Assembly: GCF_900104685.1 (NCBI RefSeq)
Contig: NZ_LT629755.1
Span: forward strand, 1,178,001 to 1,242,000
Direction: 5' to 3'
Source: Agromyces flavus
GTDB taxonomy: Bacteria > Actinomycetota > Actinomycetes > Actinomycetales > Microbacteriaceae
Length of the DNA: 64,000 nt
Notes under the pieces: model-generated
Database searches by the model: none
Told to the model about the DNA's origin: nothing
The model's input: only the letters and a program-made list of their open reading frames with translations
Shown here: piece by piece, positions 6,943 through 50,737 of the stretch
How the letters are laid out: every line of letters begins with the position of its first letter
Numbering within the stretch: position 1 is the first letter of the stretch
Translations under genes and position numbers: made by a program

Positions 6943-8052
6943 TCAGGCCCGGTGCACGCGCTCGTCGATCCCCGTGAGCGCGACACCTGCGAACCGCGCC
7001 CACGCGCGGAGGGGGCGGTCGAAGCGCGCCGACGCACCCGACGGCATGGACCGGAACCATCGCAGTTCGGCCCGCGGCCTGGCAGCGGTGCCCGCGCGCG
7101 CCCACGTGCCGACGACCCGTCCGTCGAGCACCAGCAGCGGCTGGAACACGCCGTTTCGGCCGGGGACGACGAGGTCGGCGAATTCGGGCTCGCACACGGC
7201 CGACCGGTCGGCGTAGCCGAGGAAGTACTCGTCGAACCCCGCGAGCGCGAGCGCACCGTGCGGCCGCGTGGCTGCCTCATCCGTCGCCCCGGCGCCGATG
7301 AACCGGTCGCCACCACCCGGGAACGGCTCGATCCGATCGCCGGCTGTCGAGTGCGCTGTGCGCGCGTCGGCGAGCGTGAGGCCGGTCCACCAGGCGAAGT
7401 CGGCGACGGTCGCCGGGCCGTGTCCGCCGATGTAGGCGGCGAACAGCTCGCCGAGCACGTCGTCGCGCTCGGTCGGCGAATCGGCCGGCGCCGGCGCCCA
7501 CTCGTCGAGCAGGGCGAAGTGCTGGACACGCCCGTCGACCGGGCCGCCGCACAGCACGGCATCCTGCGCGAGCCACCAGATGAGGTGGTACAGGCGCTGG
7601 CCCGGCGTCTCGAGGCCCGCCGCCGCCCACATCGCGCCGAGCTGCTCTCGCGTCGCAGTCGACCCGCCGGCGAGCTCGCGTTCGACGGTCGTGCGCGCGG
7701 TGCGGTACTCGGCCGGGCCGAGCTCGAGTTGCCGGTGGCGGAGCTTCGCCTGGGCGAGCACGCGCGGACCGGTGATCGAGAGCAGCGGTCGCAGCATCCG
7801 CGTCGGGAGCAGGTGGAGCGTGCCGCGCATCGGCCAGGAGCGCACGATGCGTCGCGACTCGATCGCGGCGTCGACCGCCTGGACCGTGGGATGCGACATC
7901 CGGCTGCCGATCGCCCATTTCGAGGCCGCCAGGTCTTGCGCCTGCATCGCACCGAGGCGCTCGACGACGGTGACGGCGTCGTCGGCGCGATCGCGGAAGC
8001 CGTGCGCGGCGAGCCGTGCCGCGCGCAGCGCGGGGGAGGACGCCGTCGCCAT
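6943..8052 (-). CDS. Winged-helix DNA-binding protein, HTH_42/AlkZ-like DNA glycosylase family
   Basis: Winged-helix protein of 369 residues in the family that includes the DNA glycosylase AlkZ. The N-terminal region holds the QAQD motif (VERLGAMQAQDLAASKWAI), which in AlkZ-type enzymes sits at the active site. The RGTLHLLP segment and the C-terminal GFDEYFLGY block also fit the family. A base-excision or crosslink-repair role is inferred; characterised members are few. The ATG at 8052 is chosen because a -10-like CAGACT lies 6 nt upstream; a longer reading would add an Arg-rich tail. Upstream sequence resembles the mycobacterial RecA-NDp/PafBC damage promoter. The gene is divergent from the ABC-F gene. 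Confidence 0.75.
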   Translation of the reverse strand: MATASSPALRAARLAAHGFRDRADDAVTVVERLGAMQAQDLAASKWAIGSRMSHPTVQAVDAAIESRRIVRSWPMRGTLHLLPTRMLRPLLSITGPRVLAQAKLRHRQLELGPAEYRTARTTVERELAGGSTATREQLGAMWAAAGLETPGQRLYHLIWWLAQDAVLCGGPVDGRVQHFALLDEWAPAPADSPTERDDVLGELFAAYIGGHGPATVADFAWWTGLTLADARTAHSTAGDRIEPFPGGGDRFIGAGATDEAATRPHGALALAGFDEYFLGYADRSAVCEPEFADLVVPGRNGVFQPLLVLDGRVVGTWARAGTAARPRAELRWFRSMPSGASARFDRPLRAWARFAGVALTGIDERVHRA

Positions 8053-8058
8053 CACGCC

Positions 8059-8081
8059 AGTCTGCCGTGCGCCGCCGACAC
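8059..8081 (-). promoter_or_regulatory. Near-match to RecA-NDp/PafBC-type damage promoter
   Basis: Reading the minus strand, TGTCGG (8079-8074) is followed after 10 nt by CAGACT (8064-8059), 6 nt before the ATG at 8052. The published mycobacterial consensus is TTGTCRGTG, 8 nt, TAnnnT. The left box and spacing fit; the -10 starts CA instead of TA. Confidence 0.4.
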
Positions 8082-8102
8082 GAGCCATCCGCCGCCCGAC
8101 GC

Positions 8103-8108
8103 TAGACT
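8103..8108 (+). promoter_or_regulatory. -10 element for the ABC-F gene
   Basis: TAGACT lies 54 nt upstream of the GTG at 8163, leaving a short leader that contains the CGGAGG ribosome site (about 8152-8157). Confidence 0.4.
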
Positions 8109-8162
8109 GGAGGGCTGTGCCGCTCGGCACGTCATCCCAACGCCGCTCGACCGGAGGTCATC

Positions 8163-18267: not shown

Positions 18268-18966
18268 TCAGCGCAACGGCCAGGCGCCCGACGTGGTGAA
18301 CTCGGGCTCGCCGTTGCGCCGGCGCCAGTCCTGGTAGCTCTCGGCCTGCTGGCGGCTCCAGTCGACCTGGCGTGCGTGCAACTCGGCGATCGCGCACGCC
18401 GCGAGCTCTGGGAATGCCCGAGCGATCGCCTGCGCGACGCGCCCTGCCGCGATGGCATCGGCGCCCGCGTCGTGCGCGGCCAGCAGTTCGACGCCGTAGT
18501 GCTCGCACGCCGCGGTGAGCGTTCGCTTGCCCGACCGGTACCGGTCGACGGCCTTGTCGATCACGAGCGGATCGACGACCCAACCCGGACCGCGGAACGG
18601 CTCGTGCCCGTACCGCTCGGCCTCGTACCGCAGGAGCGAGAGGTCGTATGCGGCGTTGTACGCCACGATGGGCAGGCTCCGAGCCGCGACCTCCCGCAGT
18701 GTCGCGATGATCTCGCCGACCGCGCGTGCGGCCGCGATCCCCTCGAGCCGCGCCCGCTCGGTGGTGACGCCGTGGATCAGCGTCGCGGCCGTCGGGATCT
18801 CGACACCGGGATCGACGAGCCACTGCCGCTGCTCGAGCACGTCGCCCTCGGGCCCGATGACGCCGACGTGCGCGGTCACGACCCGGCACGTGTCGATGTC
18901 GATGCCGGTGGTCTCGAGATCGAAGACGGCGAGGGTGTCGGCCCAGGCGGCGGGGGAGTGCTCCAT
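18268..18966 (-). CDS. DEDDh 3'-5' exonuclease (DnaQ-like)
   Basis: 232-residue exonuclease of the epsilon/RNase T superfamily, acting on DNA or RNA 3' ends. Catalytic residues: Asp16 and Glu18 in DLETTG, the ExoII Asp in NAAYDLSLL (about 102-110), and His/Asp in AHDAGADA (about 165-172), which gives the DEDDh class. It is not fused to a polymerase or UvrC domain. The ATG at 18966 is selected because TACCGT ends 7 nt upstream. That -10 is part of a RecA-NDp/PafBC-like promoter, which points to a DNA-damage role. It faces the divergent alpha/beta hydrolase gene. Confidence 0.88.
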   Translation of the reverse strand: MEHSPAAWADTLAVFDLETTGIDIDTCRVVTAHVGVIGPEGDVLEQRQWLVDPGVEIPTAATLIHGVTTERARLEGIAAARAVGEIIATLREVAARSLPIVAYNAAYDLSLLRYEAERYGHEPFRGPGWVVDPLVIDKAVDRYRSGKRTLTAACEHYGVELLAAHDAGADAIAAGRVAQAIARAFPELAACAIAELHARQVDWSRQQAESYQDWRRRNGEPEFTTSGAWPLR

Positions 18967-18973
18967 GCCGGTC

Positions 18974-18995
18974 ACGGTATCCGCGTCCCCCGACA
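18974..18995 (-). promoter_or_regulatory. RecA-NDp/PafBC-type promoter of the exonuclease gene
   Basis: On the minus strand TGTCGG (18995-18990) is followed after exactly 10 nt by TACCGT (18979-18974), 7 nt before the ATG at 18966. This matches the core and spacing of the mycobacterial RecA-independent damage promoter TTGTCRGTG-N8-TAnnnT. Outer positions are C at the first base and GG in place of TG. Confidence 0.55.
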
Positions 18996-24733: not shown

Positions 24734-25552
24734 CTAGTCGCCCTCCGCGATCCGCTCGATCGGCTCGTCGGCGCCCGCCGCGTACGGACCCGCAGCGGGC
24801 CGCTTCGCGGTGACGAAGTCGCCCGACGACTGGTGCCGGATCCGACGGACCACCCACGGCACGAGGTACTCGCGCGCCCAGGAGAGGTCCTCGGTGCGGG
24901 CCGCCCGCCACGAGCGCAGGGGAAGCGGCTCGGGCTTCATGGGCTCGAGGTCGTTCTCGACGTTCAACGCGCGCAGCACCATCCGCGCCACCTCGTGGTG
25001 CCCGAGCGAGTTGAGGTGCAGCCGGTCGCGGTCCCACATGCGCTGGTCCTGGATCTCGGCGAGCGCCCACTGGTCGGCGACGATGCAGTCGTGCTTCTGC
25101 GCGATCGCGCGGAGGTTCTCGTTGTAGATCGCGACCTTGCCGCGGATGCCGCGGAACACGGGGGAGAAGCCCACGTCGACGCCCGTGAACAGCACGATGG
25201 TCGCACGGTCCCGCGAGAGCCGCTCGATCGCGTACTCGAACCGCGCCGAGATCTCGTCGGGGTCGGTCCGCGGGCGGATCACGTCGTTGCCGCCGGCGGA
25301 GATGGTGATGAGGTCGGGACGCAGCTCGAGGGCGGACTCGACCTGCTCGTCGATGATCTGCTGGATCAGCCGACCCCGGATCGCGAGGTTGGCGTAGGCG
25401 AAGTCCTCCGTGCCCTGCGAGAGCACCTCGGCGACCCGGTCGGCCCAACCGCGGTGGCCGCCGGGCGCGCTGGGCTCGGGATCGCCGATGCCCTCGGTGA
25501 ACGAGTCGCCGATCGCGACATATCGCGACCACGGATGCTGCTGGGTGACCAT
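24734..25552 (-). CDS. SGNH/GDSL family hydrolase
   Basis: 272-residue esterase/lipase of the SGNH superfamily without a signal peptide, so presumably cytoplasmic. GDSFTEG (nucleophile Ser17), a Gly in the second block, SAGGND (Asn block) and DRLHLNSLGH (His block) give the S-G-N-H set. Substrate unknown. The ATG at 25552 is preceded 6 nt upstream by CAGAAT on the minus strand (25564-25559), again a leaderless arrangement. It is divergent from the DEVH helicase across 64 bp. Confidence 0.85.
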   Translation of the reverse strand: MVTQQHPWSRYVAIGDSFTEGIGDPEPSAPGGHRGWADRVAEVLSQGTEDFAYANLAIRGRLIQQIIDEQVESALELRPDLITISAGGNDVIRPRTDPDEISARFEYAIERLSRDRATIVLFTGVDVGFSPVFRGIRGKVAIYNENLRAIAQKHDCIVADQWALAEIQDQRMWDRDRLHLNSLGHHEVARMVLRALNVENDLEPMKPEPLPLRSWRAARTEDLSWAREYLVPWVVRRIRHQSSGDFVTAKRPAAGPYAAGADEPIERIAEGD

Positions 25553-25585
25553 CCCCCCATTCTGCACAGTCCGCCGAGTGGAGCG

Positions 25586-25608
25586 TTGTCGGTCCGCTCC
25601 GGTAGCCT
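25586..25608 (+). promoter_or_regulatory. RecA-NDp/PafBC-type promoter of the DEVH helicase gene
   Basis: TTGTCGGTC (25586-25594), 8 nt, then TAGCCT (25603-25608) matches the mycobacterial consensus TTGTCRGTG-N8-TAnnnT at all but the last base of the left box. The GTG start codon follows the -10 by 8 nt, so the mRNA should be leaderless. Confidence 0.65.
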
Positions 25609-25616
25609 CCCATCCA

Positions 25617-27443
25617 GTGAGCACAGCGACCCCCTCCGGCCATCACCTGCCGGGCACCTCGGCCGCCGAGCACCTCTCACCGTCGTTCCCCGCCCGCGCG
25701 CCATGGGGCACCGCGTCCAAGCTGCGCGCCTGGCAGGCCGAGGCGCTCGACCGGTACTTCGAGACCGAGCCGCGCGACTTCCTCGCCGCTGCGACGCCCG
25801 GCGCCGGCAAGACGACGTTCGCGCTGCGGCTCGCGGCCGAGCTCAGGGCGCGACGCACGATCGACCGCGTCACCGTGGTCGCGCCGACCGACCACCTCAA
25901 ACGGCAGTGGGCCGATGCAGCGGCGCGCGTCGGAATCCGGCTCGACCCCGGATTCCGCAACGCCCACGGCCGCGTGGCGCGCCACTTCCACGGCGTGGCC
26001 GTCACGTACGCGCAGGTCGCGATCCGGCCCGCGCTGCACCGCGAGCTCACGCTGTCGGGTCGCACGCTCGTGATCCTCGACGAGGTGCACCATGGCGGCG
26101 ACACGCTCTCGTGGGGCGACGCGATCCGCGAGGCCTTCGAGCCGGCGACCCGCCGTCTCTCGCTCACGGGCACGCCCTTCCGCAGCGACACCGCACCGAT
26201 CCCGTTCGTGCACTACGAGCCCGACGCGCAGGGCATCCGGGTGTCGAGCACCGACTACGACTACGGATACGGTCGCGCCCTCGCCGACGGCGTGGTGCGC
26301 CCCGTCATCTTCATGGTCTACGCGGGCAGCATGCGCTGGCGCACGAAGGCCGGCGACGAGATGGAGGCCCGCCTCGGCGAGGATGCGACGAAGGACATCC
26401 ACTCGGCCGCGTGGCGCACGGCGCTCGAGCCGACGGGGGAGTGGATCCCGTCGGTGCTGCAGGCGGCCGACCGCCGGCTCACCGAGATCCGCCAGTCGAT
26501 CCCCGATGCCGGCGGTCTCGTGATCGCGACCGATCAGTCCGTGGCGCGCGCGTACGCCGAGATCCTCGAGCGCACCTGCGGCGAGAAGGTGACCGTCGTG
26601 CTCTCCGACGAGAAGGAGGCGTCGGCGCGGATCGAGGAGTTCTCCGCGGGCACGAGCCGATGGATGGTGGCGGTCCGCATGGTGTCCGAGGGCGTCGACG
26701 TGCCGCGGCTCGCCGTGGGCGTGTATGCGACGAGTTCGTCGACACCGCTGTTCTTCGCGCAGGCGATCGGGCGCTTCGTGCGCGCCCGGCGCCGCGGCGA
26801 GACGGCGTCGGTGTTCCTGCCGAACGTCCCCGTCCTCATGGCGCTCGCGTCCGAGCTCGAGCGGCAGCGCGACCACGCGCTCGACCGCCGCTCGGGCGAC
26901 TACGACGATCCCGGCCTCGACGACGGCCTGCTCGAGGCCGCGAACCGCGACGAGAAGGGCTCCGACGAGCTCCAGGACGAGTTCACGTGGCAAGCGCTCG
27001 GTTCCGATGCGACGTTCGACCGGGTCGTCTACGACGGCACCGAATTCGGGACGTTCGCCGAGCCCGGCAGCGACGAGGAGCTCGACTTCATCGGCATCCC
27101 CGGCATCCTCGATCCCGACCAGGTCGCCGAGCTGCTTCGGCACCGCCAGGCGCGTCAGGCGCGTCGAGCGTCCGACCGGCGCAAGCACGTGGCCGCAACG
27201 GAAGGTGACGACGGCGGCGCCGGCGGCTCGACCGAGCCCGTCGCGCTCTACCGGACCCTGAAGGAGCAGCGCTCGCTGCTCAACAGCCTCGTCGGCCTCT
27301 ACGCACGGCAGACCGGTCAGGCGCATTCGCTCGTGCACGCCGAACTGCGTCGCGCGTGCGGCGGCCCCGACGTGGCGCACGCGACCGTGACCCAGTTGCA
27401 GGCGCGGATCGAGCTGCTGCGCCGCCGATTGTCCGGACGCTGA
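25617..27443 (+). CDS. DEAD/DEAH-box (DEVH) superfamily 2 helicase
   Basis: 608-residue ATP-dependent helicase of the XPB/RadD-like SF2 type. Q-like motif LRAWQAEAL (about 36-44), Walker A ATPGAGKT (about 59-66), Walker B DEVH, motif III LTGTP and motif VI QAIGRFVRARR are present. The last 150 residues are acidic and then Arg/Gln-rich, without a known domain. The GTG at 25617 follows a RecA-NDp/PafBC-like promoter at leaderless distance, which supports both the start and a DNA-damage function. Its exact substrate (forks, crosslinks, RNA-DNA hybrids) is unknown. Confidence 0.88.
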   Translation: MSTATPSGHHLPGTSAAEHLSPSFPARAPWGTASKLRAWQAEALDRYFETEPRDFLAAATPGAGKTTFALRLAAELRARRTIDRVTVVAPTDHLKRQWADAAARVGIRLDPGFRNAHGRVARHFHGVAVTYAQVAIRPALHRELTLSGRTLVILDEVHHGGDTLSWGDAIREAFEPATRRLSLTGTPFRSDTAPIPFVHYEPDAQGIRVSSTDYDYGYGRALADGVVRPVIFMVYAGSMRWRTKAGDEMEARLGEDATKDIHSAAWRTALEPTGEWIPSVLQAADRRLTEIRQSIPDAGGLVIATDQSVARAYAEILERTCGEKVTVVLSDEKEASARIEEFSAGTSRWMVAVRMVSEGVDVPRLAVGVYATSSSTPLFFAQAIGRFVRARRRGETASVFLPNVPVLMALASELERQRDHALDRRSGDYDDPGLDDGLLEAANRDEKGSDELQDEFTWQALGSDATFDRVVYDGTEFGTFAEPGSDEELDFIGIPGILDPDQVAELLRHRQARQARRASDRRKHVAATEGDDGGAGGSTEPVALYRTLKEQRSLLNSLVGLYARQTGQAHSLVHAELRRACGGPDVAHATVTQLQARIELLRRRLSGR

Positions 27444-35308: not shown

Positions 35309-35313
35309 GCTAG
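34321..35313 (+). CDS. IS481-family transposase
   Basis: DDE transposase of 330 residues. An N-terminal helix-turn-helix (about 10-60; RLRLAKLVVEE, MVSPVTARKWAARYRAEG) is followed by a second HTH with GPAQIAGALGMPVSTVHAVL. The rve catalytic core has Asp in IHVDVTKFG (about 141), Asp in LSDNGPAY (about 235) and Glu in GKIERFHRTL (about 271). The GTG at 34321 has an AGGAGG ribosome site. The TAG stop (35311-35313) lies in the target-site duplication, so the element itself does not encode a stop. Function appears intact. Confidence 0.92.
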   Translation: MSHANAALTPRARLRLAKLVVEERWPPAIAARMFMVSPVTARKWAARYRAEGSAGMTDRSSRPHSMPTKTPPATVKQIVQLRWRRRLGPAQIAGALGMPVSTVHAVLTRCRINRLSRIDRVTGEPIRRYEHEKPGSMIHVDVTKFGNIPDGGGWRFTGKQQGDKNKAATAVRTGRTQKGHPNIGTAFLHTVIDDHSRVAYVEICHNEKADTAIAVLQRAVAWFADHGVTVERVLSDNGPAYRSNAWRDACAELGIQPKRTRPYRPQTNGKIERFHRTLADGWAYARFYRSETERRAALPGWLHFYNHHGQHSAIGAAPISRLNNLPGHHS

Positions 35314-35314
35314 C
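35309..35314. repeat. Right target-site duplication GCTAGC
   Basis: Second copy of the 6-bp duplication. Its CTAG supplies the TAG stop for the transposase (plus strand) and for dnaE2 (minus strand). Confidence 0.8.
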
Positions 35315-38300
35315 GGAAGTCGCGCGACCGGTTCGTCGTCGACACGGTGAGCGGCTCGAACCGGTCGGCGACCAGGTTGACCACGCCCTCGCGCGAACGC
35401 TCGAGGATGCCGCGCACGACCATCGCGGGCGCCTCGCGCGCGATGCGGCGATACCGCGTCCAGACCCCGACGCTCGCGATCACGTTGAGGGTGCCGGACT
35501 CGTCTTCCAGGTTCATGAACGTGATGCCGCTCGCGGTCGCCGGCCGCTGCCGGTGCGTGACCACGCCGCCGACCTCGATGCGCCGGCCCGACTCGGCCTC
35601 GCGCAGCAGGTCGATGCGCACGACCCCGCGGGCGTCGAGGCGCTCGCGGACGTGCCGGATCGGGTGGTCGTCGGGGGAGATGCCCGTCGCCCAGAGGTCG
35701 TACACGACCTGTTCGGCGTCGTTCAGGATCGGCAGCAGCGGTGGCTGCACGACGACGACCGCGCCCGGCAGGTAGTCGGCCCGGTCCTGTGCGGCCTCGC
35801 CGGCGAGCCACAGCGCCTGCCGGGGCTGCAGGTCGAAGCACTCGAACGCGCCCGCCGCGGCGAGCGCCTCGAGCTGCGCGGCGTCGAGGTCGGCACGCCG
35901 CGACAGGTCGGCCATGTCGCGGTACGGGCCGTGCTGCTCGCGCTCGGCCACGATGCGCTCGGCGACCTTCTCGCCGATGGAGGTGACGTCGGCGAGCCCG
36001 AGCCGCACGGCGAACGCGCCATCGCGCCGGTGCTCGCCCGAGCGGTCGGGTGCGTCGCGATCGAACTCTCCGACGGGCGGTTGCGTCACGCGGGCGCACT
36101 CCGGCATGCCAGTGGGGCGACGGATGCCGCTCGCCTCCGCCGCGGCATCCGTCGCCGGCTCATCGGAACCCGCCGCCCCGATCGGCTCGAGCCCGGCGTT
36201 CACGCCCGAACGCGCGAGATCGGGCCGGAGCAGCTCGACGCCGTGCCGCCGGGCATCGGCCGTCAGCGTGTGCGGCGAGTAGAAGCCCATGGGCTGCGCG
36301 CGCAGCAGGGCCGCCAGGAACGCCGCCGGGTAGTGCAGCTTCAGCCATGAGCTCGCGTAGACCAGGAGCCCGAAGCTGATGGCGTGGCTCTCGGCGAAGC
36401 CGAAGTTCGCGAACGCCTCGATCTTCTCGTAGATCGAGTCGGCGACGTCGGGCTCGATGCCGTTGCGAGCCATCCCGTCGTAGAGCTTCGCGCGCAGCCG
36501 TTCGATCTTCTCGACACCGCGCTTGGAGCCCATGGCGCGGCGCAGCAGGTCGGCGTCGGCCGCGTCGCAGTCGCCGACCGCGACGGCCATCTGCATGAGC
36601 TGCTCCTGGAACAGCGGCACGCCGAGCGTGCGCCGGAGCACGGGCTCGAGCTTGGGGTGCAGGTAGCTCACCTGCTCTTCGCCCGTGCGGCGGCGGATGT
36701 ACGGGTGCACCGCGCCGCCCTGCACCGGACCCGGACGGATGAGCGCGATCTCGACGACGAGGTCGTAGAAGCAGCGCGGCTTCAGCCGGGGGAGCGTGCC
36801 CATCTGCGCGCGCGACTCGACCTGGAACACGCCGATCGAGTCGGCGCGGCACAGCATGTCGTAGACCGCGGGCTCCTCCTTCGGGATGGTCGCGAGCTCC
36901 CAGTGCTCGCCCGTGTGCTCGCGCACGAGGTCGAACGTGTACTGGAGCGCGGCGAGCATGCCGAGTCCGAGCAGGTCGAACTTCACGAGGCCCATCCACG
37001 CGCAGTCGTCCTTGTCCCACTGCAGCACCGTCCGGTCCTCCATGCGGGCGTGCTCGATGGGGCACACCTCGCCGACGGGCCGGTCGGTGAGCACCATGCC
37101 GCCAGAGTGGATGCCGAGGTGCCGCGGGAAGGTCAGCAGTTGCTCGGCGAGTTCGACGACCGCGTCGGGGATGTCGTGGTCCTGCGTCTCGACGACGGCG
37201 CCCCAGCGCTCGACCTGGCGCGACCACGCATCCTGCCGCCCGGTCGAGTAGCCGAGCGCCTTCGCCATGTCGCGCACCGCGCCCTTCGGCCGGTAGCTGA
37301 TGACGTTCGCGACCTGTGCGGCGTTGTGCCGGCCGTACTTGCCGTAGACGTACTGGATGATCTCCTCGCGCCGGTCGGAGTCGAAGTCGACGTCGATGTC
37401 GGGCTCCTCGTCGCGCAATGACGACAGGAACCGCTCGAACGGCAGCTCGTAGAAGATCGAGTCGACGCCCGTGATGTCGAGCACGTAGCAGACCGCCGAG
37501 TTCGCCGCCGAGCCGCGACCCTGGCACAGGATGCCGCGACGCCGCGCCTCCTGCACGAGGTCGTGCACGATCAGGAAGTACCCCGGGAAGTCCTTCTGCT
37601 CGATCACGTCGAGCTCCTTCGCGAGGCGGTCGCGCACGTGATCTGGCAGGCCGGGGTAGCGGCGGTCGGCGCCCGCCCACACGAGCTCGCGCAGCCACGA
37701 CATGGGCGTGTGCCCGTCGGGCACCTGCTGCCTCGGCAGCTTCGGCCGGGCGCTGCGCAGCCGGAACGACAGGTCGCGCGCGAGCGTCACCGAGTGCGCG
37801 ACCGCTCCCGGGTAGCGGTCGAACCGCGCGAGCATCTCGGCGCCCGAGCGCAGGTGCAGCCCGTCGGTGGCGGGCAGCCACCCGTCGAGCTCGTCGAGGC
37901 TGCGCCGGGCGCGCACCGCGGCGAGGGCCGACGCGAGCCGGTGCTCGCCGGGCGTGGCGTAGTGCACGGCGTTCGTCGCGAGCACGGGCACGCGTGCACG
38001 GGCGGCGAGCTCGGCCAGCGCGTCGTTGCGGACCTGGTCGAGCGGGTCGCCGTGGTCGGTGAGCTCGACGACCACGTGGTCGCGTCCGAACAGGGCGACG
38101 AGCCGGTCGAGCTCGCGCCACGCGGCATCCGCCCCGCCCTCGCCGGCGAGTGCGCGTCGCACCGCGCCCTTTCGGCACCCGGTGGGGATCACCCAGTGCC
38201 CGTCGGCGCGCTCGGCGAGCTGCTCGAGGTCGTACACCGGGCGGCCCTTCTCTCCACCCGCGAGCTGCCCGGCCGTGATCGCGGCGGCGAGCCGGTGGTA

Positions 38301-38765
38301 CCCCTCTTCACCCGCGGCGAGCACGAGCAGGTGCTCGCCCTCGGGGTCGGCCGCGCCCATCTGCGGCTCGGTGAGCCCGAACGACAGCTCGGCGCCGAAC
38401 ACGGTGTCGAGCTCGGGGTACGACTCGGCGGCCTCGGCGAAGCGCACGACGCCGTAGAAGCCGTCGTGGTCGGTGATCGCGATGCCCGCGAGGCCGAGCC
38501 GGTGCGCCTCCTCGACCAGCCGCTCAGGCCCCGACGCGCCGTCGAGGAAGCTGAACGTCGAGTGCGCGTGCAGCTCGGCGTACGGCACGACGGGGCCGGC
38601 GGGCCGCTCGTCGGCGTCGTGCGAGGGGCGGTACGGATGCCGCTTGCGGCTCCATCCCGGACTGTCGCCGCCGTCGGCCAGGACCTTCGAGCCACCGGGC
38701 CGCTGCCGGTCGGACAGCCGCCGCTCGAGCTCGGACCACGGGATCTCGGGGTTGTTCCAGCCCAT
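35310..38765 (-). CDS. dnaE2: Error-prone DNA polymerase III alpha subunit
   Basis: C-family polymerase for translesion synthesis in the ImuA'-ImuB-DnaE2 mutasome; 1,151 residues. The N-terminal PHP domain has ELHAHSTFSFLDG and AITDHDGFYG. The polymerase palm carries PDIDVDF (about 455-461); the later HHH/OB-fold regions (RLGLADVTSIGEK, GVVTHRQRPATASG) are present. An unusual Asp/Arg/Pro-rich insertion of about 50 residues (36010-36180) precedes the helix-hairpin-helix region. The ATG at 38765 overlaps the imuB stop by 1 nt. Expected SOS control from the LexA box at 41105. The stop codon sits in the IS target duplication. Confidence 0.94.
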   Translation of the reverse strand: MGWNNPEIPWSELERRLSDRQRPGGSKVLADGGDSPGWSRKRHPYRPSHDADERPAGPVVPYAELHAHSTFSFLDGASGPERLVEEAHRLGLAGIAITDHDGFYGVVRFAEAAESYPELDTVFGAELSFGLTEPQMGAADPEGEHLLVLAAGEEGYHRLAAAITAGQLAGGEKGRPVYDLEQLAERADGHWVIPTGCRKGAVRRALAGEGGADAAWRELDRLVALFGRDHVVVELTDHGDPLDQVRNDALAELAARARVPVLATNAVHYATPGEHRLASALAAVRARRSLDELDGWLPATDGLHLRSGAEMLARFDRYPGAVAHSVTLARDLSFRLRSARPKLPRQQVPDGHTPMSWLRELVWAGADRRYPGLPDHVRDRLAKELDVIEQKDFPGYFLIVHDLVQEARRRGILCQGRGSAANSAVCYVLDITGVDSIFYELPFERFLSSLRDEEPDIDVDFDSDRREEIIQYVYGKYGRHNAAQVANVISYRPKGAVRDMAKALGYSTGRQDAWSRQVERWGAVVETQDHDIPDAVVELAEQLLTFPRHLGIHSGGMVLTDRPVGEVCPIEHARMEDRTVLQWDKDDCAWMGLVKFDLLGLGMLAALQYTFDLVREHTGEHWELATIPKEEPAVYDMLCRADSIGVFQVESRAQMGTLPRLKPRCFYDLVVEIALIRPGPVQGGAVHPYIRRRTGEEQVSYLHPKLEPVLRRTLGVPLFQEQLMQMAVAVGDCDAADADLLRRAMGSKRGVEKIERLRAKLYDGMARNGIEPDVADSIYEKIEAFANFGFAESHAISFGLLVYASSWLKLHYPAAFLAALLRAQPMGFYSPHTLTADARRHGVELLRPDLARSGVNAGLEPIGAAGSDEPATDAAAEASGIRRPTGMPECARVTQPPVGEFDRDAPDRSGEHRRDGAFAVRLGLADVTSIGEKVAERIVAEREQHGPYRDMADLSRRADLDAAQLEALAAAGAFECFDLQPRQALWLAGEAAQDRADYLPGAVVVVQPPLLPILNDAEQVVYDLWATGISPDDHPIRHVRERLDARGVVRIDLLREAESGRRIEVGGVVTHRQRPATASGITFMNLEDESGTLNVIASVGVWTRYRRIAREAPAMVVRGILERSREGVVNLVADRFEPLTVSTTNRSRDFR

Positions 38766-40315
38766 CAGTCGTACCTCGCCTCGGCCCACCAGCCCTCGGC
38801 ATCGCGCACCAGCAGCCACGCGCAGCCGTCGTGGTCGACGACCTGGAACCGGTGCACGCGGCGCGCACGCCCGGCATCCCACCAGCGCTCGACGACCGGC
38901 CATGGGCCGGCCCACGCGCGCACCGGCGCGGGCCGCCCGGCGCCGACCGCGAACGACGCGGGCGCCGACGAGATCGCGCCGCGTGCGTCGACCGACACGG
39001 CCGCATCGCCCGCGTCGACGAGCGCCACCGGCAATCGCTCGCGGAACACGCTCGCGGGCGCGAGTGCGGGCAGGCTCCCCGGCCATGGCGCCTCGGCCGC
39101 GGCAGGCTCGGGGGCGCGGTCGCCCCACGGCACGAGCACCTGCCGGTCGGCGAGCATGCGCCCGCCGCCGACCGCCGCGGTCACGACGCCCTCGTGCCCG
39201 AGCATGCTCTGCACGCGGGTCAGCCCGTGGTGCACGCGCTCGTCGGGGCCGCCGCCCCAGAGGCCCTGCTCGTGGTTGCCGGTCGAGTCGACGCGCTCGG
39301 GCACGACGCGCAGGCGCACGATGGGGGAGTCGAGCCCCGCGTCGGCCGTGCCGGCGCCCTGCAGCTGCCAGCGCACGCGGTCGACCACATCGGCGGGCGT
39401 GAACCACTGCGGGTGCAGCCAGCTGCGGCTCGAGTGCCCGCCACGCTCGTCGTCGAGTTCGACGCGGATGCCGGTGCACACGAGCCGCACCGCCCGCATC
39501 CGCTCGATGAACTCCTCGGCGCGCACGCGGAACGCGAACGCGAGCTGGTCGATGCGATCGAGCGGCGGCTCGAAGTGCTGCTCGACCTCGAAGTCGGGCG
39601 GGGGAGTGCGGGGCGCCACGCGCGACTGCTCGCGGCCGGCCGAGCGGTCGTGCGCGAACGCGCCCGCCGCTCCGAAGCGCCGCCGGACGTCCTCGTCGGG
39701 CAGCGCCGCGAACTCGCCGAGCGTGCGCACGCCGAGCCGGTGCAGCAGCGTCGTCGTACGTGCATCGACCACGAGCGCCACGGGCAACGGGGCGAGGAAC
39801 GCGGCCGCCTCGCCGGGTGCCACCACGTGGACGGGCACGCCGCCCCGCACGGCCGCACGCGCCGCCTGCTCGGCCGCGAACGGGCCGTCGGCGACGCCGA
39901 CCCGGGCGCCGACGACCCCGAGCCCGGCGACGGCGTCGAGCAGCGCCCGCGCCGCGGCATCCTCACCGCCGTAGTACCGGGACGGGCCGCGCGCCCGCAT
40001 CGCAAGCGTGCCGGGCCGCAGCACCTGCACGCCCGGCACGATCGCCTCGATGCCGCGCACGACCGGTTCGAACGCGCGATGGTCGAGCGCCGCGTCGTAC
40101 TCGAGCACCGTGAGCGCCGTCGAGCGGTACTGCGCCTCGCGGAGCTTCAGCCCGCGCGCCACGCCATCGCGCCGGGCCGCCGCCGAGCACGAGTGCACCA
40201 GGCCCGACTCGGTCAGCGCGACCGGCTGGGCCGCGTCGAGGCCGGCCTCGCGGCACGCGGCGAGCACCGGCCAGTCGGGACACCACAGCACGATGGTGCG
40301 CACGGCCGCGCTCAC
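38765..40315 (-). CDS. imuB: DNA polymerase Y family protein ImuB
   Basis: Y-family-like adapter of 516 residues linking DnaE2 and ImuA' to the sliding clamp; family members lack polymerase activity. The N-terminus reads TIVLWCPDWPV instead of an intact catalytic DxD block. The EQGLWGG motif (about 346-352) matches the clamp-binding QLPLWG-type motif of mycobacterial ImuB. The C-terminal region after 380 is Ala/Pro/Arg-rich with WWDAGRARRVHRFQV near the end. GTG 40315 overlaps the imuA' stop (GTGA), and the TGA overlaps dnaE2, so the operon is tightly coupled. Confidence 0.92.
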   Translation of the reverse strand: MSAAVRTIVLWCPDWPVLAACREAGLDAAQPVALTESGLVHSCSAAARRDGVARGLKLREAQYRSTALTVLEYDAALDHRAFEPVVRGIEAIVPGVQVLRPGTLAMRARGPSRYYGGEDAAARALLDAVAGLGVVGARVGVADGPFAAEQAARAAVRGGVPVHVVAPGEAAAFLAPLPVALVVDARTTTLLHRLGVRTLGEFAALPDEDVRRRFGAAGAFAHDRSAGREQSRVAPRTPPPDFEVEQHFEPPLDRIDQLAFAFRVRAEEFIERMRAVRLVCTGIRVELDDERGGHSSRSWLHPQWFTPADVVDRVRWQLQGAGTADAGLDSPIVRLRVVPERVDSTGNHEQGLWGGGPDERVHHGLTRVQSMLGHEGVVTAAVGGGRMLADRQVLVPWGDRAPEPAAAEAPWPGSLPALAPASVFRERLPVALVDAGDAAVSVDARGAISSAPASFAVGAGRPAPVRAWAGPWPVVERWWDAGRARRVHRFQVVDHDGCAWLLVRDAEGWWAEARYD

Positions 40316-41088
40316 GAGGCCCTCGCCGCGAAGTCGGGCCGGTGCACGATGCCGCCGTCGGCGGCCGTCATGTCGGCGACGGATGCCGCGTCGCGCCCGG
40401 TCGCGTCGGCCTCGCCGATCGCGGCGAACCCCAGGTCGCCCGCCGGCAGCCGGAGGCGGCGACGGCTGCCCCGGCCGACCTCGCCGCGACCCGTGACCCG
40501 GACGACGACCTCGCGCTCGGCGAGGTGCCCGTGGCCGTGTTCGAGCCCGGTCCACTCGCTCCGCTCGAGCTCGAGGCGCGCGTCGCTGCCGGGCCAGTCG
40601 CCGTCGACGAGCAGCAGCGCACCGCGCTGGCGGAGCCGCGCGGCGAACCGCGACGCCTCGGCGGGCGCGAGCCGGCCGGCCGGCCGCACGGCGACCACCG
40701 GGATGACGTCGGCGAGCGCCGCCGCGACCGTGAGCCACTGCCGGCCCGGATCGGGCACGAGCACGAGCCGCTCGAGGTCGATGCCGAACCGCGCGGCCGC
40801 CTCGACGCCGAACTCGGGGATGCCCGCCACCGCGACCCACCGCCCGCTCTGCGACGGCCCGACGAGCGCCGCCATGAGCAGCGTGACCGACCCCTCGACC
40901 TGCACGACCGCGCCCTCGCGGAGTGCGCCCCCGGGCAGCACCGAGGCGAGCGCGGGATGCGTGGGCACCGCCCGCGAATCGAGCCGGGTCGACTGCATGC
41001 CGCGGATACGCGCCTGCAGTTCCTCTACACGCTCGACCCGGCCCGCGGCCGCCGCGGAAGCCGTCGGCACGGATCGGGGAGCGGTCAT
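40312..41088 (-). CDS. imuA': ImuA' mutasome protein (RecA-like fold)
   Basis: Small RecA-like protein of 258 residues required for DnaE2-dependent mutagenesis in related actinobacteria. It has the RecA-like frame LPGGALREGAVVQVEG...LVGPSQSGRWVAVAG, but the Walker A GxxxxGKT is replaced (VEGSVTLLM), so ATP hydrolysis is doubtful. I use ATG 41088 (MTAPRS); in-frame GTGs at 41094 and 41097 are alternatives. A perfect 16-bp LexA box lies 16 nt upstream of the chosen start. First gene of the imuA'-imuB-dnaE2 operon. Confidence 0.88.
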   Translation of the reverse strand: MTAPRSVPTASAAAAGRVERVEELQARIRGMQSTRLDSRAVPTHPALASVLPGGALREGAVVQVEGSVTLLMAALVGPSQSGRWVAVAGIPEFGVEAAARFGIDLERLVLVPDPGRQWLTVAAALADVIPVVAVRPAGRLAPAEASRFAARLRQRGALLLVDGDWPGSDARLELERSEWTGLEHGHGHLAEREVVVRVTGRGEVGRGSRRRLRLPAGDLGFAAIGEADATGRDAASVADMTAADGGIVHRPDFAARAS

Positions 41089-41104
41089 CGTCACCACTCA
41101 ATGT

Positions 41105-41120
41105 TCGAACACATGTTCGA
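41105..41120 (-). promoter_or_regulatory. LexA (SOS) box
   Basis: The perfect palindrome TCGAACACATGTTCGA (TCGAAC-N4-GTTCGA), extended to 18 bp by flanking bases, matches the actinobacterial LexA consensus. It lies directly upstream of imuA' and overlaps the likely promoter, with TTGCCG on the minus strand just before it as a possible -35. Confidence 0.88.
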
Positions 41121-47491: not shown

Positions 47492-47539
47492 CCACGAGCG
47501 GTCGCCGTGCCGCCGCGGCGCTTCAGTATGATCGCTGAC

Positions 47540-48559
47540 GTGGCGACACCCAAGCGCTCGGGAGAGCCGAGGATCCCGGTCGAGGACCGGCTGTTCAGCC
47601 TCGTCCTGGCGCTGCTCGCCACCGAGACCGGCCTGCTGAAGTCCGAGATCCTCTCGACCGTGCGCGGATACGCCGAGCGGTACGACGCACGCGGCGGCAA
47701 CGCCAACCTCGAGCGCCAGTTCGAGCGCGACAAGGACGACATCCGCGACCTCGGCATCCCGCTCGAGACGGTGGAGTCGCCCGACCGGCCCGGCGACAAC
47801 CAGGCGCTGCGGTACCGGATCCCCAAAGGCGAGTACGATTTGCCGGTCGACGTGCGCTTCACGCCCGACGAGCTCGCGCTGCTCGGCCTCGCGGCCGAGG
47901 TGTGGCGCGAGGCGTCGCTGTCGGCCGACTCGCAGCGTGCACTCACGAAGCTCCGCTCGCTCGGCATCGAACCGCGTGAACCCGTGATCGGGTACGCGCC
48001 TCGCCTGCGGGTGCGCGATGCCGCGTTCGAGCCGATCCGCCAGGCGCTCGACAAGCGCCAGCGCGTGCGATTCCGGTATCTCAAGCCGGGGGAGCACGAG
48101 CCGCGCCTGCGCACGGTCGAGCCGTACGCGATGGTGCTGCACGAGGGGCGCTGGCACCTGCACGGCCGCGACGTCGACGTCGACGAGGGCCGCACCTTCC
48201 TGCTCTCGCGCATCGTGGGCGATGTGCAGGTGGTCGCGGGTGCGCCCTTCGCGCCTCCGCCGCCCGACATCCAGGACCGCGCGCTGGCCGACCTGCAGGC
48301 GCTGCGCCTGTCGAATGCGGCCGACCTCGCGGTGCGCGCGGGGTCCGATGCAGAGGTGCGACTGGGCAAGCGCGCGGTCGCCGCCGACGAGGATGCCGGC
48401 GTCATCCGCTTGCACTACACCGACGCGGCGATCTTCGCCGACGAACTGGCCTCGTACGGCCCCGAGGTGCGCGTGCTCGCGCCGGCGTCGCTGCGCGACG
48501 CGGTCCGCGACCGCCTCGAGGCCGTCGCGGCGGCGCACCGTGCAGGAGGAGCGGCATGA
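47540..48559 (+). CDS. pafB: PafB, WYL-domain transcriptional regulator
   Basis: 339-residue subunit of the PafBC transcription activator of the DNA-damage response in mycobacteria. An N-terminal winged helix (about 12-70; RLFSLVLALLATETGLLKSEI) precedes a WYL domain (about 160-235; RVRFRYL, GRWHLHGRDV) and a WCX-like C-terminus. The GTG at 47540 is selected because TATGAT (47527-47532) ends 7 nt upstream. Forms a pair with pafC through an ATGA overlap. Named after the Pup ligase gene pafA that normally precedes it; pafA is absent here. Confidence 0.92.
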   Translation: MATPKRSGEPRIPVEDRLFSLVLALLATETGLLKSEILSTVRGYAERYDARGGNANLERQFERDKDDIRDLGIPLETVESPDRPGDNQALRYRIPKGEYDLPVDVRFTPDELALLGLAAEVWREASLSADSQRALTKLRSLGIEPREPVIGYAPRLRVRDAAFEPIRQALDKRQRVRFRYLKPGEHEPRLRTVEPYAMVLHEGRWHLHGRDVDVDEGRTFLLSRIVGDVQVVAGAPFAPPPPDIQDRALADLQALRLSNAADLAVRAGSDAEVRLGKRAVAADEDAGVIRLHYTDAAIFADELASYGPEVRVLAPASLRDAVRDRLEAVAAAHRAGGAA

Positions 48560-49575
48560 GCGGACCGTCCTCGCGGCGGCCGGCCGGCCTGCGCGCGCCC
48601 GACAAGCTCGTGTTCCTGCTGTCGCTGGTGCCCTATCTGCTCGAGCAGCGGGTCGTCGACGTCGCCGAGGCCGCGGCGCACTTCGGCGTCGGCGAGCAGG
48701 AGATCCGCGACGCGGTCATGCTGATCGCCACGTCGGGCCTGCCCGGCGCGACGGGCACGTACCAGCCCAACGACCTCTTCGACATCGACTGGGACTCCTT
48801 CGAGGAGGACGACGTCATCGTGATCGTGCACCACGTCGCGATCGACGACGCCCCGCGGCTCTCGGCGCGCGAGGCGGCCGCCCTCATCGCGGGCCTGCAG
48901 TACCTCTCGGCGCTGCCCGAGAACGCCGGCCGGGCCTCCCTCGCGGCGCTGACCGAGAAGCTGCGCGCCGGCGCATCCTCGGCGCCGAGCCGGCTCGCGG
49001 TCGCCGAGGAGTCGGCCGACGAGTCGCTCGCGACGGTACGTCGGGCCGTGGCATCCGGTCATCGCCTCGACTTCGACTACCTCAACGCGCGGGGTGAACG
49101 CCGCCGGCGTCGGGTGGACCCGCTGCGGATCGCCTCGCTCGGCGCCGACTGGTACCTGCAGGCGTACGACCACCTGCGCGAGGACGTCCGCAACTTCCGC
49201 GTCGATCGCATGAGCGACCTCGAGGTGACCGACGAGCCCATCGGCGACCACTCCGGGCGCGCCATCCCGGAGACCCTGTTCCAAGCGTCGCCCGACGACC
49301 TCGAGGTCGTCGTCGACGTCGCTCCGGCGACGCTGCCGCTGCTCGGCGACTACCTCGCCGACTCGACCCAGGCCGAGGCGGGGGACCGTCTGCGCGTCAC
49401 GCTTCGCCTCTCCCACGTGCACGGCCTGAAGCGGCTGGTGGCCGGCCTGCCCGGACTCGTCACCGTGGTCGCGCCCGACGTGGCCCGGGCCGCCGTCGCG
49501 GACTGGGCCGAGGCGGGGCTCGCGGGGTATTCCGACGCGCCGGGAGACCCCGACCCGCGCGTGACCGAAGCGTGA
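48556..49575 (+). CDS. pafC: PafC, WYL-domain transcriptional regulator
   Basis: 339-residue partner of PafB. An N-terminal winged helix (about 15-70), a WYL domain near 155-225 (HRLDFDYL, ADWYLQAYDH, FRVDRM) and a WCX C-terminal domain are present. In mycobacteria the PafBC complex binds RNA polymerase at promoters with TTGTCRGTG-N8-TAnnnT after DNA damage; single-stranded DNA is the proposed ligand of the WYL domain. Candidate promoters of that type occur elsewhere in this window. ATG 48556 overlaps the pafB stop by 4 nt. Confidence 0.92.
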   Translation: MSGPSSRRPAGLRAPDKLVFLLSLVPYLLEQRVVDVAEAAAHFGVGEQEIRDAVMLIATSGLPGATGTYQPNDLFDIDWDSFEEDDVIVIVHHVAIDDAPRLSAREAAALIAGLQYLSALPENAGRASLAALTEKLRAGASSAPSRLAVAEESADESLATVRRAVASGHRLDFDYLNARGERRRRRVDPLRIASLGADWYLQAYDHLREDVRNFRVDRMSDLEVTDEPIGDHSGRAIPETLFQASPDDLEVVVDVAPATLPLLGDYLADSTQAEAGDRLRVTLRLSHVHGLKRLVAGLPGLVTVVAPDVARAAVADWAEAGLAGYSDAPGDPDPRVTEA

Positions 49576-49927: not shown

Positions 49928-50737
49928 GTGTCTGCCGTGAAGGATCGCGGCACCCGCAACCCCGAGAAGCGGATGTCGCTCGGGGAGCACCTGCTCGAAC
50001 TGCGCAAGCGGCTGTTCATCTCCGCGATCGCGATCGTCGTCGGCATGGCCGCCGGCTGGGTGCTCACCGACCTGTTCGTGTGGCAGGCCATCCAGGAGCC
50101 GGTGAACCTCGTCGTCGAGGCGCAGCAGGGCACCGACGCCGCGAGCACCGGGATCATCTTCCCGACGATCTCGAGTGCGTTCGACCTGCGCCTGCAGATC
50201 GCGTTCACGCTGGGCATCGTCATCTCCGCTCCGGTGTGGCTCTACCAGGTCTTCGCGTTCCTCGTGCCCGGGTTGAGCTCGAAGGAGCGCAAGTACACCT
50301 TCGGCTTCTTCGCGACCGCGATCCCGCTCTTCTTCGCCGGCTGCGCGGCCGGCTGGTTCGTGCTGCCGAACATCGTCAAGCTCATGACGAGCTTCGTCCC
50401 CGAGGGGGCCGAGACGCTGCTCACGGCGAAGGAGTACATCGACTTCGTCCTGAAGCTGGTGGTCGCAATCGGCATCGCGTTCGTCCTGCCGGTCTTCATC
50501 GTGCTGCTCAACTTCGCCGGCGTCATCAGCGCGAGCTCGATCATCAAGTCGTGGCGGGTCGCCATCCTCGTGATCGTCCTGTTCACCGCCTTCGCGACGC
50601 CGTCGGCCGACGTGGTCTCCATGTTCATGCTGGCGCTGCCGATGATCGGGCTGTACTTCGCGGCGTACGGCATCGCGTTCCTGCACGACCGCCGAGTGGC
50701 CAAGCGCAATGAGCTGGAGTTCGGGACGGCTGTCTAG
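49928..50737 (+). CDS. tatC: Sec-independent protein translocase TatC
   Basis: 269-residue integral membrane protein with six predicted helices, the substrate receptor of the Tat export pathway. The family N-terminal motif EHLLELRKRLFIS (about 19-31) includes the Glu that binds the twin-arginine signal; the Pro-rich loops (FLVPGLSSKERKY) also fit. The GTG at 49928 is four bases after tatA. It forms the tatAC operon and its gene order relative to pafBC and helY follows the mycobacterial arrangement. Confidence 0.95.
   Translation: MSAVKDRGTRNPEKRMSLGEHLLELRKRLFISAIAIVVGMAAGWVLTDLFVWQAIQEPVNLVVEAQQGTDAASTGIIFPTISSAFDLRLQIAFTLGIVISAPVWLYQVFAFLVPGLSSKERKYTFGFFATAIPLFFAGCAAGWFVLPNIVKLMTSFVPEGAETLLTAKEYIDFVLKLVVAIGIAFVLPVFIVLLNFAGVISASSIIKSWRVAILVIVLFTAFATPSADVVSMFMLALPMIGLYFAAYGIAFLHDRRVAKRNELEFGTAV

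Follow-up and report, generated by a model that had tools for sequence, protein, structure and literature searches.

A probable PafBC-type promoter in front of a superfamily 2 helicase gene of Agromyces flavus and its conservation in Microbacteriaceae

The stretch of 64,000 nucleotides of the Agromyces flavus genome analysed here (the window) carries, at 25617..27443 of the plus strand, the gene of a 608-residue superfamily 2 (SF2) helicase with a DEVH motif II (residues 155-158), preceded by the divergent gene of a GDSL lipase/acylhydrolase (24734..25552, minus strand). The lipase ATG at 25552 and the helicase GTG at 25617 bound a gap of 64 bp that holds the promoter of interest. Read on the plus strand, this consists of TTGTCGGTC (25586..25594), assigned as a PafBC-type −26 element (consensus TTGTCRGTG) from motif matching in the genome and alignment within the genus; of the 8-nt spacer CGCTCCGG (25595..25602), within which a CTC is well conserved across the genus; and of the −10 element TAGCCT (25603..25608), an instance of TANNNT in which T, A and T are invariant in the 58 genus rows profiled. 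CCCATCCA and the GTG (25617-25619) follow. From the position of the −10 element, transcription is predicted to start within 25614..25617, at or just before the GTG, which would lie at the distance expected of a leaderless mRNA.

The mycobacterial consensus of RecA-independent DNA-damage (RecA-NDp) promoters is quoted as tTGTCRgtg-8 nt-TannnT (PMC5656591), and 11 of its 12 fixed letters are found at the helicase site. The −26 element agrees with TTGTCRGTG in eight of nine letters, with an exact TGTCRG core and a C in place of the last G, and is separated by the same 8 nt from TANNNT. The site thus shares its −26 element, spacer and −10 element with the mycobacterial recA P1 promoter, which is of the RecA-NDp/PafBC type, with the difference of one letter.

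The product of the gene contains ResIII/DEAD and Helicase_C domains (PF04851, PF00270, PF00271), a Walker A motif (ATPGAGKTT) and the DEVHH sequence, as required of an SF2 helicase. Relatives are found at E 1e-100 in 127 of 150 genomes of the family, and those from the order and class show 57-65% identity. The AlphaFold model has a mean pLDDT of 70 and a low quality across much of residues 425-545, so that structural interpretation stops short of the C-terminal third. In fold comparisons, in which a family missing from the lists is not thereby excluded, the helicase core resembles that of RadD (YejH), a DNA repair helicase, and of other SF2 proteins, among which XPB/RAD25 (archaeal XPBII) shows 15-20% identity. 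The sequence score against the RadD equivalog (NF053632), however, is only 20.6 bits (cut-off, 720), and assignment to the Dnd restriction helicases (TIGR04095) was also rejected (69.6 bits; cut-off, 600). RadD is said to act on stalled or branched DNA. In a table of the repair genes of a radiation-resistant actinobacterium, SdrA (Rv2917, Krad_3772) is given as a superfamily II DNA or RNA helicase in the section on ionizing radiation resistance (PMC2587704). SdrA is likewise an SF2 helicase of Actinobacteria and, by taking into account its name in the table, the protein encoded in the window is probably a RadD/XPB-like SF2 helicase of the SdrA/Rv2917 type. Thus, of the 'uncharacterised SF2 helicase' of the preliminary description, the Pfam domains uphold the superfamily, and the type seems to be the one tabled as SdrA in PMC2587704. 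Rv2917 does not occur in the main texts of a pair of mycobacterial PafBC or mitomycin studies, and no naming of the helicase as a RecA-NDp/PafBC target was found in the open-licence literature; regulon tables in supplements might mention it.

The strong form of the motif, TTGTCRGT-N9-TANNNT, has a single exact match in the 3,692,308-base genome, namely the helicase site, and none in the reversed control. The core TGTCRG-N10-TANNNT has 30 matches versus four reversed, so that, going by this control, about four of the 30 would be due to chance. With N11 in place of N10, as a control of spacing, zero matches were obtained versus five reversed, and within the window both occurrences of the core are at spacing 10, with none at 7-9 or 11-14. 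Three sites one letter off the core (L117-L119) were kept out of the count of 30. Permitting two mismatches in the full motif gave 144 matches versus 45 reversed, which makes such loose matching little informative; it was set aside, and only part of the 144 matches was listed. An ATG or GTG is found 6-9 nt 3′ of TANNNT at 23 of the 30 core sites, where it opens frames of at least 100 codons in 20 cases and of 62-80 codons in three. Considering TANNNT alone, a start 6-9 nt further on that opens at least 61 codons is found at 17 of the 58 window sites examined; against this background leaderless placement is enriched at core sites, but is weak evidence by itself. The near-perfect RecA-NDp/PafBC-type promoter that had been proposed at 25586 is therefore borne out by the 11 of 12 letters, by the right spacing and by the uniqueness of the strong form, and the equally strong matches at random places, which had been named as an argument against it, were not encountered, the strong form being single and most core sites lying directly before a start codon. 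The excess of core sites extends beyond A. flavus. Across 60 genomes of the genus the core was counted 1985 times versus 190 reversed, and exceeded its own control in every one; the same was true of all 20 named genomes of other genera (including Streptomyces, Curtobacterium and Brevibacterium), in some cases narrowly (32 versus 22).

The 29 other core sites of the A. flavus genome (L088-L116) were taken with approximately 3 kb of downstream sequence. At 15 of them the next gene is one of repair, recombination or replication: RecQ, a PcrA-like helicase, Mfd, an AlkZ-like glycosylase, XseB, a UvrD-type helicase, RuvA, a RarA-like protein, UvrB, UvrA, a DnaQ-like exonuclease, RecA, DnaX, RecF and a TM0106 RecB-like nuclease. 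The PcrA-like and RarA-like proteins score below their NCBIfam cut-offs (865.8 versus 911.2 bits and 182.8 versus 570, respectively), and the distance from site to gene is 110 nt for RecA and 27 nt for both RecF and the TM0106 RecB-like nuclease. With the background of repair genes guessed at 2-5%, which is our own estimate, the binomial tail for 15 of 29 is 2e-18 to 1e-12. A sixteenth site opens an ORF of 62 residues, after which come an NAD kinase and a RecN-like start, the latter call being made by eye on a weak AAA match only, and oligoribonuclease follows one further core site. No evident repair gene comes next at the remaining 12, one of which lacks any ORF of 80 codons; the genes found there code for alpha/beta hydrolases, an epoxide-hydrolase-like protein, dienelactone hydrolase, transporters, a glyoxalase-like protein, a RibD-like protein and unassigned ORFs. 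These hydrolase, transporter and small-ORF genes may likewise belong to the damage response. DNA polymerase I is preceded by a site one letter off the core (L119). Judged from sequence, the 30 core sites of this member of the Microbacteriaceae make up a PafBC-type regulon. The window has one further exact core match, TGTCGG-N10-TACCGT (18974..18995, minus strand), which lies 7 nt before the start of the gene of the DnaQ-like, DNA polymerase III epsilon-type exonuclease (18268..18966, minus strand; PF00929; NF005927, 282.9 bits, cut-off 186). The window also contains the gene of an AlkZ-like DNA glycosylase (6943-8130, minus strand; PF06224, 183.3 bits), before which the window scan found no exact core site; another AlkZ-like gene of the same genome (L093) does carry one in front.

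A relative of the helicase is present in 59 of 60 genomes of the genus. Its upstream region was taken to pass when it had at least eight of nine core letters at spacing 10, followed after 6-10 nt by a start codon in frame. One locus (L069), which comes from the same genome as another (L031), was left out before this count, and one without a site (L087) before the column profile, leaving 58 rows. At spacing 10, 58 of the 59 orthologs pass, 43 of them with an exact core, while at spacings 6-9 and 11-15 at most two pass in each case; the orthologs being related, the conserved sites are not independent of each other. Column information in the 58 rows peaks at TGTC, at TAnnnT, at the start codon and at a T and a C inside the spacer, with partial conservation of some other spacer and downstream columns. 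Upstream of the core, columns 25-11 hold at most 0.28 bits and columns 10-1 hold 0.25-0.97 bits. For most of the listed orthologs of the genus, the aligned part sets in with the residue that follows the GTG, which supports this start codon. As a separate observation, the letters of the spacer CTC, which lies outside the known motif, are found in 44 (C), 52 (T) and 55 (C) of the 58 sequences. A subgroup of the genus (L009, L012, L017, L027, L028, L030 and others) also shows an inverted repeat, GGTTCGAGG...CCTCGAATCC, that flanks the −26 and −10 elements.

Within the family, sampled as one genome per genus with one genus represented twice (74 genomes, 73 genera), 40 genomes pass at spacing 10 with eight of nine letters and at most five at each of the other spacings examined (5-16), so that 34 of the 74 are without the strong site. 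With the looser requirement of seven of nine letters, 45 pass at spacing 10, and spacing 12, with 20, is the highest of the others. Among 80 named loci, which may overlap with the genus and family genome sets, 38 pass (among others, Leifsonia, 3/3; Rathayibacter, 2/2; Cryobacterium, 6/10; Microbacterium, 12/25; Curtobacterium, 0/8). Three Curtobacterium genomes contain 34-40 core sites versus 1-3 reversed, in spite of the failure of all eight helicase sites. In a control with 60 permutations of the hexamer the means were 0.02-1.3, whereas the maxima reached 38 of 59 and 33 of 80, the high values coming, we think, from TGTCGR-type permutations that overlap the consensus. Two family loci (L138 and L124) have TGTCGG and TANNNT separated by 11 rather than 10 nt before the helicase gene, a possible spacing variant. 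Outside the family, one of 26 helicase loci passes. On these sequence comparisons, the promoter is a trait of Microbacteriaceae, in about half of the genera, and not of the helicase across Actinobacteria.

The preliminary description had also placed both subunits of the activator in the window, and this is confirmed by matches to the solved PafBC structure (6sj9) and by the WYL domains. PafB (47507..48559, plus strand) gives 133.2 bits to residues 6-319 of 6sj9_A and 129.8 bits to 9fnd_X; PafC (48556..49575, plus strand) gives 141.7 bits to residues 344-663 of 6sj9_A and 89 bits to the PafC of 7p5x_AX. The two genes overlap by 4 nt, and they account for two of the four WYL domains of the genome. 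As in the mycobacterial RecA-NDp system, then, PafB and PafC are both encoded in the genome, in which the core precedes recA, uvrA, uvrB and ruvA. As at the mycobacterial locus, TatC (49928-50737) comes after pafB-pafC (47507-49575). In contrast with the mycobacterial pafABC operon, which has the Pup ligase, no match to this enzyme was found in the A. flavus genome at E 0.001. Pupylation and the proteasome are required in M. smegmatis for RecA to fall back to its level before the stress (review PMC8223512); A. flavus would have to lower RecA otherwise. A PafC-like relative (E 1e-25) is found in 144 of 150 family genomes, where weak matches in small genomes may be paralogs. The strong helicase site is present in none of three genomes without a PafC match and in 40 of 71 others, a difference that is not significant (Fisher p 0.09). 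Nothing on PafBC in Microbacteriaceae was found in the open-licence literature.

The LexA SOS operator consensus is TCGAAC-N4-GTTCGA. GAAC-N4-GTTC is absent from 25400-25800, and the best SOS-like match within this region (two mismatches, at 25747) lies inside the helicase gene. A perfect SOS box, TCGAACACATGTTCGA (41105-41120), lies elsewhere in the window, beside a minus-strand cluster coding for a Y-family polymerase domain protein (38765-41101; PF00817) and a DNA polymerase III alpha-type protein (35310-39479), which we infer to be an ImuB-DnaE2 mutasome. It seems that targets of the two damage regulons lie together in this window.

An ordinary, constitutive and leaderless SigA promoter, made of the −10 element only, with TGTCGG incidental and no part for PafBC, could be set against the reading of the site as activator-dependent, because a TANNNT with a start 6-9 nt on is common, as the window count indicates. 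Such a promoter is improbable by taking into account that TGTCRG lies at exactly the same spacing in 58 of 59 genus orthologs, at eight of nine letters, and that the core is enriched throughout the genome at spacing 10, where it precedes not only the recA, uvrA, uvrB and ruvA genes but also mfd. Furthermore, the best agreement with TTGACA 15-19 nt 5′ of TAGCCT is at most three of six letters, as expected if the activator takes over the −35 contact (mechanism in PMC11804915). Less probable still is induction by damage through LexA or through another regulator reading the same element, such as ClgR, which has been reported in mycobacteria to recognize the RecA-independent motif (cited within PMC5656591). 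The perfect box at 41105 speaks for LexA, but the lack of any close SOS box before the helicase gene, in the scan of 25400-25800, led to the rejection of LexA control, and the RecA-NDp motif is attributed to PafBC in the review PMC8223512 on the basis of genome-wide binding.

A further explanation does not conflict with the preferred one as regards the promoter, and disputes the role only: PafBC would use the site, which would be a lineage-specific extra of little weight for a housekeeping helicase. The low count outside the family and the 34 of 74 family genomes lacking the site imply that the helicase can do without it, and speak for this explanation; near-complete conservation in the 59 genus orthologs speaks against it and, on the whole, it appears rather unlikely, less so than the two alternatives that deny PafBC its part.

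The preferred reading, to which we assign a probability of about 0.88, is that a SigA promoter of the RecA-NDp/PafBC class, dependent on its activator, is present at this site and directs the synthesis of a leaderless SF2 helicase mRNA after damage. According to PMC11804915, single-stranded DNA arising from damage binds to the WYL domains of PafBC, which sits between promoter DNA and domain 4 of SigA, with PafB on the −26 motif, and lets RNA polymerase use promoters of this class. On this model, damage of the A. flavus chromosome would generate single-stranded DNA and activate PafBC; PafB would contact TGTCGG of the −26 element, and RNA polymerase with SigA would use TAGCCT. Transcription from or next to the GTG at 25617 would yield the leaderless mRNA, and the helicase, with its RadD- and XPB-like core, would then act on damaged or stalled, or branched, DNA. 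The assignment to the promoter class is well supported; PafBC binding, the point at which transcription starts and what the helicase does biochemically are predictions. That the gene belongs to the DNA-damage response is very probable, because nearly all of the close relatives examined retain the promoter signal in this position. Its earlier nomination as a candidate damage-response gene is strengthened by the unique motif, the spacing, the company of repair genes and the conservation within the genus. In the Microbacteriaceae the helicase is thus a putative member of the PafBC regulon, with PafBC dependence and induction by damage as predictions.

The occurrence of RecA-NDp promoters beyond mycobacteria, in other Actinobacteria, has already been published (review PMC8223512). 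What is new, as far as literature searches show, is the conservation, within one family, of this SF2 helicase as a predicted target. The odds are about even that the Microbacteriaceae recruited an old actinobacterial SF2 helicase into the PafBC regulon as a RadD/XPB-like partner of RecA-independent repair, that the helicase lies outside it in related genera whose PafBC-type promoters do not include this one, and that the family thus preserves a history of the gain and loss of a single regulon member. The patchy distribution of the site before the helicase gene makes the evolution of such a member traceable, and the strict spacing makes the motif usable to predict damage genes in Microbacteriaceae. 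From sequence, a PafBC-type regulon with about 30 core sites is recognizable in a bacterium without a Pup ligase match. The class of promoter is known, the target helicase nearly unstudied and the prediction sharp, so that a widespread and little-studied actinobacterial helicase gains a concrete, testable role in the survival of DNA damage.
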